Below, piece by piece: positions 59,993 to 63,854 of a stretch of 64,000 bases of DNA. Within the stretch, counting starts at the first letter, position 1; every line of letters begins with the position of its first letter. Under the pieces are notes generated by a model. It was given only the letters and a program-made list of their open reading frames with translations, had not been told where the DNA came from and searched no databases. The position numbers and the translations under genes are program-made. The DNA comes from Actinobacillus indolicus (GTDB lineage Bacteria; Pseudomonadota; Gammaproteobacteria; Enterobacterales; Pasteurellaceae): assembly GCF_901764975.1 (NCBI RefSeq), contig NZ_CABFKH010000009.1, positions 1 to 64,000 of the forward strand, in the 5' to 3' direction.

Positions 59993-61387
59993 TTAAAAAG
60001 AAACATCAAAAGAACGACATAAGGAAGTAATTACTTCTTCCATTTTTTGGCTACGAGAGCCTTTTGCTAATAATACAAGCGGTTGGTTTTGTTCGATTTT
60101 TTGCAAAATAATCGGAAGCAAAAACGCCGCCATTGCGGTTTTGTCATTAAAGTGGTGAGCTGAATTACCGCTAATCACCTCACTCTCTTTGCCGAAGCTG
60201 ACCACTAAATCGAGCCTCGCCTGTTTAACGAAATCGGCGACCTCTTGGTGGCAAGCTGGGCTGTCTTTGCCAAGTTCTGCCATATCGCCCACCACAAAAA
60301 TGCGGAAAGCAGGATATTGTTTTAACACAGATACCGCAGATTTCATTGAACCTACATTCGCATTATAACTGTCATCAATAAACAGCACATTGTCTTTAAT
60401 TTCAATCGGATACAAACGCCCTTTAACCGCTGAACGCTGTTCTAATCCAGCTTTAACCGCAGTTAAATCCGCCCCGACTGCCATTGCGAGTGCTGTTGCT
60501 GCTAAGGCATTACTCACATTATGCTCGCCCAAATAAGGCAGGTTGATCTCAATTTCACCCTGTGGCGTATGCAAGGTAAAGCGTGAACCATTGAGCTGTA
60601 ACTCAACATTTTCCGCCCAAAAATCTGCATAGCTATCTTTATCTTCGCCTGTGTAGCAAAACGACTGTAGCTCGTGATCGCCAATCTCTTTCTGCCATTC
60701 AGGGTAGTAATGGGCTAAATTCACAATCGCTTTACCGCCCACTTTCAAACCACGATAAATTTCGCCTTTAGCTTGAGCCACACCTGCCAATGAGCCAAAT
60801 CCCTCAAGGTGAGCAGATGCCACGTTATTCACTAAACAGGCATCAGGTTGTGTAATCTCAGTAGTATAAGCAATTTCGCCGATATGGTTCGCCCCAAGTT
60901 CTACCACGGCAAATTGATGCTCAGGGGTTAAACGCAATAGGGTCAACGGCACACCTAAATCATTGTTTAAATTACCAAAGGTATAAAGTACTTGATCTTC
61001 ACAAGCGGTCACTTTTTGCAAAATTTTTGCAGTCATCTCTTTGACGGTGGTTTTGCCTGAAGAACCCGTCATTGCCACGGTTTTAGGGTTAATTTCCGCT
61101 TTTAGCCATTTCGCCAACTGCCCTAATGCCAAGCGGGTATCTTCCACAATAATTTGCGGTACATTCACAGCCAATTCACGCTCAACGACTAAAGCAACGC
61201 AGCCTTGTTCAATCGCTTTTTCCACATAATCGTGAGCATCAAATTTTTCGCCTTTTAATGCAAAAAATAAACCTTTTTCAACCGCTTGACGGGTGTCTGT
61301 ACTGACGTTTTCAACAATAATCTCGCTACTACCGAGTAGTTTACCCTTTAGAGTTTGGGCGAGTTGTTGGGTGCTTTGTTTTATCAT
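59993..61387 (-). CDS. murF: UDP-MurNAc-tripeptide D-alanyl-D-alanine ligase
   Basis: Adds D-Ala-D-Ala, the last cytosolic step of the precursor; 464 residues. Start MIKQSTQQLAQTLKGKLLG, ATP loop AMTGSSGKTTVKEMTAKIL, NNDLGVPLTLLRL, ANHIGEIAYTTEI, and IDDSYNANVGSMKSAV. Two uptake-signal cores lie in coding sequence (60075 and 61001). The first 70 bp of the gene are duplicated upstream at 61811-61880. Its ATG overlaps the stop of the preceding lipoprotein gene by 4 bases, so it is now translationally coupled to that gene, not to murE. Confidence 0.97.
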   Translation of the reverse strand: MIKQSTQQLAQTLKGKLLGSSEIIVENVSTDTRQAVEKGLFFALKGEKFDAHDYVEKAIEQGCVALVVERELAVNVPQIIVEDTRLALGQLAKWLKAEINPKTVAMTGSSGKTTVKEMTAKILQKVTACEDQVLYTFGNLNNDLGVPLTLLRLTPEHQFAVVELGANHIGEIAYTTEITQPDACLVNNVASAHLEGFGSLAGVAQAKGEIYRGLKVGGKAIVNLAHYYPEWQKEIGDHELQSFCYTGEDKDSYADFWAENVELQLNGSRFTLHTPQGEIEINLPYLGEHNVSNALAATALAMAVGADLTAVKAGLEQRSAVKGRLYPIEIKDNVLFIDDSYNANVGSMKSAVSVLKQYPAFRIFVVGDMAELGKDSPACHQEVADFVKQARLDLVVSFGKESEVISGNSAHHFNDKTAMAAFLLPIILQKIEQNQPLVLLAKGSRSQKMEEVITSLCRSFDVSF

Positions 61388-61764
61388 TTTAGTTTATATC
61401 CCTCATCAATTATTGCCTTTCCATTTAGCTCATAATAATGGTTAGCAAATAATTCGACTCTTTGCCCTTTTTTCAATACCAATTTTTCTGGGAATGTTAC
61501 ATTTGCATTAACCAATTTTCCTTGTGGAAAATATTCACAACGATCAAAAAAGCTAGCATTATTCTCTATTATAATTCCCTTTATACGAGCCGAATACCAA
61601 GTATATTTAGACCTGTTATTATTTAGGTCGATTTCTGTAGCTTCGTGCTCTTCTAACTTCGTATCCTCTAATAATTCAACGATGACCGAAGAACAGGAGT
61701 GACTTTTCAGTATAGAACAGCCGGTGAGTAAACATAGCAAACAGACTGATAACAGCAATTTCAT
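61384..61764 (-). CDS. putative lipoprotein inserted upstream of murF
   Basis: 126 residues from the ATG at 61764 (AGGAA ahead of it; the frame is open to 61785). A signal peptide ends in lipobox LLTGC. The mature part is polar, with a second Cys pair (HSCSS, DRCEY) and a C-terminal beta-like stretch (KKGQRVELFANHYYELNGKA). I do not recognise a family. It is flanked by the real murF start and by a partial copy of it, implying insertion with duplication. Base composition looks somewhat AT-richer than the neighbouring mur genes. Function unknown; not part of the standard dcw cluster. Confidence 0.72.
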   Translation of the reverse strand: MKLLLSVCLLCLLTGCSILKSHSCSSVIVELLEDTKLEEHEATEIDLNNNRSKYTWYSARIKGIIIENNASFFDRCEYFPQGKLVNANVTFPEKLVLKKGQRVELFANHYYELNGKAIIDEGYKLK

Positions 61765-61803
61765 AAGTTTTTCCTGACTATTCAACTATAAGATAGGGAC
61801 TCA

Positions 61804-61878
61804 TCACCCTATCTCGCCACTACCAAGTAGTTTACCCTTTAGGGTTTGAGCAAGTTGTTGGGTGGTTTGTTTTATCAT
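61804..61878 (-). pseudogene. truncated duplicate of the murF start
   Basis: Encodes MIKQTTQQLAQTLKGKLLGS then GEIG and a TGA stop: 24 codons matching the first residues of MurF. DNA at 61811-61880 aligns without gaps to 61320-61389 at 64 of 70 bases. It lies where murF would begin if the lipoprotein gene were absent. The small inverted repeat GATAGGG/CCCTATC (61792-61813) marks the break. Probably non-functional, although it could still be translated. Confidence 0.88.
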
Positions 61879-61895
61879 TTATTACCTTATTTGTA

Positions 61896-62345
61896 TTAAC
61901 CCACCATACTAGATATGGTTCGATAGAAATTAAAAGCATAGTTCATGCCATAGGTCATCACCATCATCACAGCGACGATATTAATGACGAAAAAGAACAT
62001 CACCACTTTAGCATTACCTTCTTGCCAAAATAACTTCACCGTTTGCCAAAAACTCAGCGGTGTGTTGACTTCTATATTCTGCAATTCTTGTAAAGCTTTT
62101 AATGCTTTCTTAGCAAATGAGGCGATATTAACCGCCATAGCGCTGATTGCAATAAAAAGCGATCCCAAAGAAAACAACACCATGCCTACTTTTTCAAGGC
62201 TCCAATTTGGATTCTCTAATTCAGGCAATCCAAAAAACGCCAAAGAAAGAAAAAGTACCGTTGGAGTAAGATTCCTTAAAAATCCTAAATAATCATCACC
62301 TAATTTAAAAATAAAGGCAGTAATCGTAATTCTTTGTTTATTCAT
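61896..62345 (-). CDS. uncharacterised membrane protein between murE and murF
   Basis: 149 residues with three or four hydrophobic segments (about 24-42, 54-73, 113-135). Between the second and third are a basic helix (SFAKKALKALQELQNIEV) and a tryptophan-containing loop (FWQTVKLFWQEGN). No family recognised. It starts 6 bases after the murE stop, so it is translated with murE, and is followed by the murF remnant. It is absent from the standard dcw order, where murE and murF abut, and may have entered together with the lipoprotein gene or earlier. Confidence 0.7.
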   Translation of the reverse strand: MNKQRITITAFIFKLGDDYLGFLRNLTPTVLFLSLAFFGLPELENPNWSLEKVGMVLFSLGSLFIAISAMAVNIASFAKKALKALQELQNIEVNTPLSFWQTVKLFWQEGNAKVVMFFFVINIVAVMMVMTYGMNYAFNFYRTISSMVG

Positions 62346-62351
62346 CGCTCC

Positions 62352-63854
62352 CTAGCCAAGAAATTTTTTCGCCCACTCTTGATCCGAAAAATGATATTTC
62401 TTCGTGCCGATAATTTGGTAATCTTCATGCCCTTTACCGGCAATTAAAATCACATCTTTTGGCTCGGCTTGGGCAATTGCTTGTTCAATCGCATATTGGC
62501 GAATATGCATAGACTGTACCGCTTTTGGTTTGCGGAAGCCTTTCATAATATCGTTAAAAATCACATCAGGATCTTCGGTACGTGGGTTGTCATCAGTTAC
62601 AATCACTCTGTCTGCTAACTGTTCGGCAATGCGTGCCATTAATGGGCGTTTACCGGTATCACGGTCACCGCCACAACCAAAGACACACCATAATTCGCCT
62701 TCGCAATGCAAACGTGCGGCATCTAAGGCTTTTTCTAAGGCATCGGGGGTATGGGCGTAATCGACAATCACCATCGGGCTTTCTTCTGGATTTTCTTCGC
62801 TGATTAAACATTCCATACGTCCGCATACACCGTTTAAGAGCGGTGCGGTTTCGACTAATTTTTGCAAATCGTAGCCCAAAGCCAATAAACCAGTGAAAGC
62901 GGTTAATAAGTTGCTCACATTAAACGCCCCGATTAAGCGGCTTTTAAGTTCGCCGTTGCCCCAACTACTTTCAAATTCGATAGTCGCACCTTGTAAGGTA
63001 AATTGTACCGCTTTTGCTTTGACCCAACGGGCTTGTTGTGGTTGGAATTGGCTGTCGGTGCTGACGGCGACGGCTTCTGGCAATTTTGCCAGCCATTCAT
63101 GCCCGATCTCATCATCGGCATTGATTACTTGTTGTTTTGATGAAAGCTCGCCAAATAAGCGGAATTTCGCTTGGGCGTATTCTTCCATTGTGTTGTGATA
63201 ATCAAGGTGATCACGGCTTAAGTTAGTGAAAATCGCCAAGTCGAAGTCTAACGCTTCAGCACGATATTGAGCCAAGCCGTGAGAAGAGACTTCCATTGCA
63301 CAGAAATCCGCCCCTAATTCGACAAAGTTCGCAAGGTTGCGTTGAATTTCAATGGCAGAACCTGTGGTGTTTACCGCTTCTTGTACTTGCCCGTATAGCC
63401 CGTTGCCGATGGTTCCCATCACTGCTGATTTACCGCCAAGCAAGTTTCGCCATTGTGCAAAAAGCTGTGCCGTAGTGGTTTTGCCGTTAGTGCCTGTAAT
63501 GCCCACAAGGGTTAATTTTTCTGACGGATTGCCATAGAATGCACCTGCAATTGCCGAAAGTTGCTTCGGTAAATTCGGCACTTCCAGCACACAAGCGGTC
63601 TGATTTTCATGATTTTTTGCAAATTTTTCTGCAAATCTTACCGCTTGCACATCGTCATCCGCTTCTGCTAAAACTAAAGAAGCTCCTTGCTCAATCGCTT
63701 TTTCAATAAACTGACGACCATCGACTTGATGTCCTTTTAATGCCACAAACAGATCGCCTTGCCCAACTTGACGGCTGTCCAAGGTCATTTGGTTTAATTC
63801 TTTTAATTCGCCCCAATAGTTAAGTTCAGGAAAAAAGGAAAATAAACGGTTCAT
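62352..63854 (-). CDS. murE: UDP-MurNAc-dipeptide:meso-diaminopimelate ligase
   Basis: Adds the third residue of the stem peptide, 500 residues. ATP loop [53 protein letters not shown], and the DDNPRTEDP motif whose Asn-Pro-Arg is specific for meso-diaminopimelate over lysine. An inverted uptake-signal pair (63591-63650) near the N-terminus encodes [19 protein letters not shown], longer than the loop expected there. 9 bases after the ftsI stop. Confidence 0.96.

Follow-up and report, generated by a model that had tools for sequence, protein, structure and literature searches.

The murE-murF junction of Actinobacillus indolicus, a pig-associated bacterium, contains a lipoprotein gene flanked by two copies of the start of murF. 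The question is how that gene came to lie in an essential operon directly ahead of murF, and which of the two starts was there before it. The window is a stretch of 64,000 nucleotides from one A. indolicus genome (G000; 22 contigs, 2,103,350 bases), and we compare it with a congener (G001), a member of another genus (G027), Actinobacillus minor NM305 (G112), Glaesserella australis (G002), Muribacter muris (G004) and the wider set of 140 Pasteurellaceae genomes.

Gene order and the repeated murF start

Read along the minus strand, on which all of these genes are encoded, the order is murE, gene X, a murF stub, the lipoprotein gene and murF. The two flanking genes are readily identified, murE (62352..63854) by NCBIfam PRK00139.1-1 at E = 1.6e-229 and the complete murF (59993..61387) by PRK10773.1 at E = 4.9e-177. 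Between them are gene X (61896..62345; 149 aa), the stub (61804..61878), a spacer of 39 nt (61765..61803) and the lipoprotein gene (61384..61764; 126 aa). A 70-bp direct repeat has its upstream copy at 61811..61880, over the stub, and its downstream copy at 61320..61389, where it forms the working murF start. The copies are identical at 64 of 70 positions (91%), ungapped, at a spacing of 491, and a local alignment of the murE-murF gap to the genome's own murF start scores 56, with 100 shuffles reaching at most 14. The stub frame opens with an ATG at 61878 and closes with a TGA whose last base is 61804, giving 24 sense codons and a stop, and the TGA of the lipoprotein gene overlaps the ATG of murF as ATGA. 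The initial annotation had described all of this, the ungapped 64/70 repeat of the murF 5' end, the 24-codon remnant with its stop in the upstream copy, and the lipoprotein gene between the copies with its stop overlapping murF, and each part is borne out, the repeat standing well above shuffles and the remnant agreeing with the frame count. Full-length murF gives a single match per genome at E <= 1e-60 in 140 of 140 Pasteurellaceae genomes, so the downstream copy belongs to the only full murF found. The congener has the same arrangement of stub, lipoprotein gene and murF.

By sequence reading the lipoprotein has MKLLLSVCLLCLLTGC, in which the lipobox-like LTGC is what we take to be a candidate lipobox. 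Of the six frames over its stretch, no other is open in either species. At E <= 0.001 the protein is found in 2 of 140 Pasteurellaceae genomes, A. indolicus and the congener, with 16 further family genomes giving weak matches only (E = 0.0057 to 1). Among 394 genomes of the order it finds only itself, G001 not being among the matches, and among 398 genomes of the phylum it finds itself and one weak match at E = 0.0056. No relatives appear in plasmids or phages at E <= 0.01, and 9 pattern matches in viral contigs yielded 0 confirmed. Pfam offers no family, NCBIfam only LvhB7 and IglE far below cut-off, and solved structures a single chance-level match at E = 1.5; a structure model built from the two sequences has a mean pLDDT of 37.9 and no usable fold. 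Following up the searches that the initial annotation had called for, we found no relative beyond the two species in the searches made. A transposon or insertion sequence was considered as an identity for the insert and rejected: there is one gene, with no Pfam family and NCBIfam scores far below cut-off. Searched against G000, the 507-bp stretch finds its own locus and the start of murF, along with five places at E = 0.04 to 0.93, and promoter-like sites are no more numerous than in shuffles.

Distribution of the insert and of gene X

Two relatives have the empty site. Both G027 and A. minor NM305 have murE-X-murF without the lipoprotein gene and without the duplicate, and their murE-murF region is near-identical to that of A. 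indolicus. In both, the start of murF with its leader lines up with the stub and its leader in A. indolicus and the congener, a 2-nt gap aside, and because the empty-site starts occupy the stub position, the stub is most simply the old murF start. The initial annotation's proposal that the lipoprotein gene was inserted is supported by these empty sites and by the gene's presence in 2 of 140 family genomes.

The junction was then compared in 139 of the 140 family genomes, G095 being left out. The murE-murF gap is 50 bp or less in 91 of them, 51-399 bp in 25 and at least 400 bp in 20, and murE was not found beside murF in 3. Fifty stretches, those with a gap of at least 30 bp or with murE not placed, were searched for a copy of the genome's own murF start. 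Clear copies are present in A. indolicus, the congener and M. muris, with scores of 56, 60 and 65 against shuffle maxima of 14; G025 scores 14 against a shuffle maximum of 13, one point over. When 45 junctions were searched for a duplicated murE end, only M. muris rose above its shuffles (17 versus 14). No donor form, a lipoprotein gene joined to murF without a stub, was found. Other Pasteurellaceae junctions carry different inserted genes, a point absent from the initial annotation. One of them is in G. australis (L079), which has between murE and murF a 140-aa gene detected in 1 of the 140 family genomes; the adjoining murF start differs from that of A. indolicus at 25 of 60 bases, with 3-13 differences in later blocks. 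Averaged over 595 clade pairs, however, variability is also highest in the first murF block, with 18.1 differences per 60 as compared with 12.3-17.5.

Gene X, absent from the initial annotation, is a second non-dcw gene, between murE and the stub, and has matches in 26 of 140 family genomes. It has no Pfam or NCBIfam family above cut-off and no match to solved structures up to E = 10; the model is helical with a mean pLDDT of 78.7, and the protein is probably a membrane protein. At the 7 loci viewed where X lies away from murE-murF, a different lipoprotein precedes it in 4 (L009, L011, L014, L020), and a glyQ-like gene is in view at 4 (L009, L010, L014, L019; names read from sequence). This X-associated lipoprotein has a relative on another A. 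indolicus contig (G000:C10), and because the companion of X lies elsewhere, X itself is probably a newcomer at murE-murF. In G014, the X-associated lipoprotein and X are found together between murE and murF.

Silent divergence and the probable course of the insertion

The comparison of silent sites between A. indolicus and the congener carries most of the argument, and it rests on two genomes, with small counts and overlapping control windows. The lipoprotein gene has 1 silent difference in 79 sites along with 10 replacements, and murF codons 1-23 have 0 in 15 with 3 replacements, so that the cassette made up of the two has 1 silent difference in about 93 sites. Around it, the stub has 4 in 16 (1 replacement), gene X 10 in 92 (2 replacements), the last 900 nt of murE 49 in 185 (13 replacements) and murF after codon 23 has 79 in 293. 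Fisher tests separate the cassette from the stub (p = 0.0015), from gene X (p = 0.0025, with 11 entered for X) and from the remainder of murF (p = 7e-10); the stub against the remainder of murF gives p = 1.0. As a control, 16 reading frames between 44.5 and 64 kb were divided into 398 overlapping windows, each with about 79 silent sites, and only one of them, lying on the lipoprotein gene, has 1 or fewer silent differences. Across the other 15 frames, silent differences per site range from 0.085 to 0.387. The lipoprotein frame being the sole open one, its low silent count is no frame error. Values of dN/dS for murE in the congener and A. minor were left out as apparently distorted by a length difference.

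The low silent divergence is confined to the lipoprotein gene together with the new murF start, which argues for one recently exchanged cassette, with the stub as the native start. The simplest reading of these sequences is that the lipoprotein gene and the new start were swapped between the lineages after their murE-murF alleles had diverged. Two proposals of the initial annotation, entry of the lipoprotein gene and murF start as one segment and transfer from a related strain, gain support here, the first from the silent-site divergence and the second in that a related-lineage transfer fits. Its reading of the 9% difference between the copies as the mark of an older event does not survive: nothing else in the region has so little silent divergence as the cassette, and the repeat copies differ at 3-6 of 68 sites both within and between species, which is the range of sister-species alleles. 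Judged by that same distance from the stubs, the new murF start is not foreign, and it may have arisen by duplication on the spot with homogenisation afterwards. The two working starts share AGC at codon 5, absent from both stubs and from the 8 further genomes whose starts come within 20 mismatches of that of A. indolicus.

The replaced codons in the lipoprotein are clustered, with 4 adjacent pairs (permutation p about 0.001), an arrangement that would suit exposed loops in the predicted protein and that neutral change also fits. Positive selection is not claimed, as 10 replacements among 11 differences fits neutrality (p = 0.30); at least 10 replacement differences occur in 46 of 398 control windows, and the lipoprotein's ten are not unusual.

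We think it reasonably probable that a segment with the lipoprotein gene and a murF start entered the murE-X-murF junction and was recently exchanged between A. indolicus and the congener. The lipoprotein gene, already joined to a murF start, would have come in as one DNA segment. On the murF side it would have recombined by homology, crossing over beyond codon 23 and probably ahead of codon 36; as this would lead one to expect, the low silent divergence runs on into murF, where codons 24-45 have 2 silent differences in 14 sites with the first at codon 36. Translation of host murF would thereafter begin at the incoming start. At its other end, the segment would have been joined without homology inside the native murF start near nt 70, and the first 23 native codons with one further codon and a stop would remain as a dead stub, keeping the old ribosome-binding region. 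At the empty sites, AAGGATAATAAATG stands ahead of murF and a similar leader stands ahead of the A. indolicus stub, and the working murF is directly preceded by the last codons of the lipoprotein gene. Because the AAGG-type leader stays with the stub, the translational coupling of murF to the lipoprotein gene that the initial annotation proposed is plausible, and murF may be translated after it through the ATGA overlap.

The vehicle was probably natural transformation. An uptake-type word, ACAAGCGGT, occurs in 29 copies in the window where 0.33 would be expected; no exact copy is within the insert, the nearest being at 61001 and 63591. Haemophilus (Glaesserella) parasuis has been described as transformable, with ACCGCTTGT as the uptake motif in the related A. 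pleuropneumoniae (PMC5809987). The direction of transfer can only be inferred. In 250-bp blocks, identity to G027 is 88-97% over roughly 60.0-63.75 kb, where the lipoprotein gene is absent from G027, and 86-97% over 52.75-56.25 kb, with 67-78% between 56.25 and 58.25 kb, and this alternation is a sign of inter-genus recombination across the dcw cluster. Over murF nt 71-370, G. australis is equally distant (44-46 of 300) from A. indolicus, the congener, G027 and A. minor, which suggests transfer of this segment out of the Glaesserella side and into that of A. minor.

The spacer complicates a purely recent arrival. Just past the repeat, A. indolicus and the congener differ at 6 of 13 bases, and a one-base gap follows farther along. 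One recent transfer into an empty site would not produce such a pattern, so part of the junction may predate the exchange. An alternative, which we regard as possible but doubtful, is that the lipoprotein gene was inserted once in the ancestor shared by the two species, with a long target duplication that put 70 bp of murF on either side of it, and that recombination later homogenised the cassette stretch. The upstream copy does stand in native upstream context and the downstream copy in native downstream context, as a duplicating insertion would leave them, both copies fall within one allele family, and a spacer that is diverged yet alignable in both species suggests an insertion older than the exchange. 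However, this history requires a second event for the silent-site drop over the lipoprotein gene and new start, and no recurring element was found in the insert. Duplication of a lipoprotein-murF-start unit in tandem, with the first of the two lipoprotein genes then being lost, we find scarcely credible: the tandem repeat in M. muris tells us that such events do occur here, but upstream of the stub there is X and a short leader almost identical to that of the empty sites, with no trace of a second lipoprotein.

The stub might instead be a functional leader peptide controlling the lipoprotein gene or murF, which we consider very improbable. Its start codon and open frame are present in both species, for 24 codons in A. 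indolicus and 31 in the congener by hand count, and 4 of its 5 differences are silent. A hairpin can form across its end from a perfect 8-bp inverted repeat at 61791-61814 (AGATAGGG/CCCTATCT), which extends into the spacer, is partly kept in the congener and has no other occurrence within G000. But divergence at a time when the stub was still the murF start would account for the silent changes equally well, the stop is not at the same position in the two species, the fold z-score is -0.77, no Rfam family matches at gathering score, and the leader ahead of the stub reads AAGA in the congener as against AAGG in A. indolicus. We retain the exchanged segment, with the stub as the remnant of the native start, as the preferred account.

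Meaning of the case and comparison with known systems

The case gives a readable instance of a foreign gene entering a conserved essential operon and leaving it intact, the insert bringing the start of the target gene. The direct repeat predicts clean loss of the insert, and the murE-murF junction appears as a site of gene gain in part of the Pasteurellaceae. A more general idea, to which we give little credence at this stage, is that the murF start serves as a landing pad, with rapidly changing envelope genes travelling among related Pasteurellaceae together with a ready-made murF start. If that were true, each insertion would keep essential murF alive. The lipoprotein of A. indolicus would then sit at the surface and evolve under diversifying selection, and the 140-aa gene of G. 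australis would be a second case. So far neither is significant: the replacement excess fits neutrality (p = 0.30), and across the clade the first murF block has the highest average variability in any case. No literature was found on murE/murF in Glaesserella or on dcw-cluster insertion in Pasteurellaceae, and on mosaicism or recombination in A. indolicus the accessible portions of the literature held only apparently unrelated work.

Insertion with long target duplication was reportedly first described by Nobusato et al. in 2000. The resemblance is that a gene absent in a relative is flanked by a long direct target repeat (70 bp, 64 identical), with related genomes, here G027 and A. minor, having a single target and no insert. 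In Helicobacter pylori such insertion is described as frequent with restriction-modification genes (PMC1643837, PMC4978471), and the present case differs in that the inserted gene encodes a lipoprotein and the operon is an essential one, and in that silent sites suggest separate histories for the two repeat copies. Homology-facilitated illegitimate recombination (PMC3240628) would be similar in having one end, here the murF end, probably made by homology and the other apparently made without extended homology, but here the event is inferred from genomes and the left junction is unreadable for microhomology. A counterpart within the family is M. muris, which has a 226-bp tandem duplication (L064, 3143-3582; 1.9 copies) including 93 nt of the murF start. 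Unlike in A. indolicus, no gene is recognised between its copies and both copies include repeat-rich upstream DNA, and yet the outcome is alike in that a truncated murF start lies ahead of a working murF.
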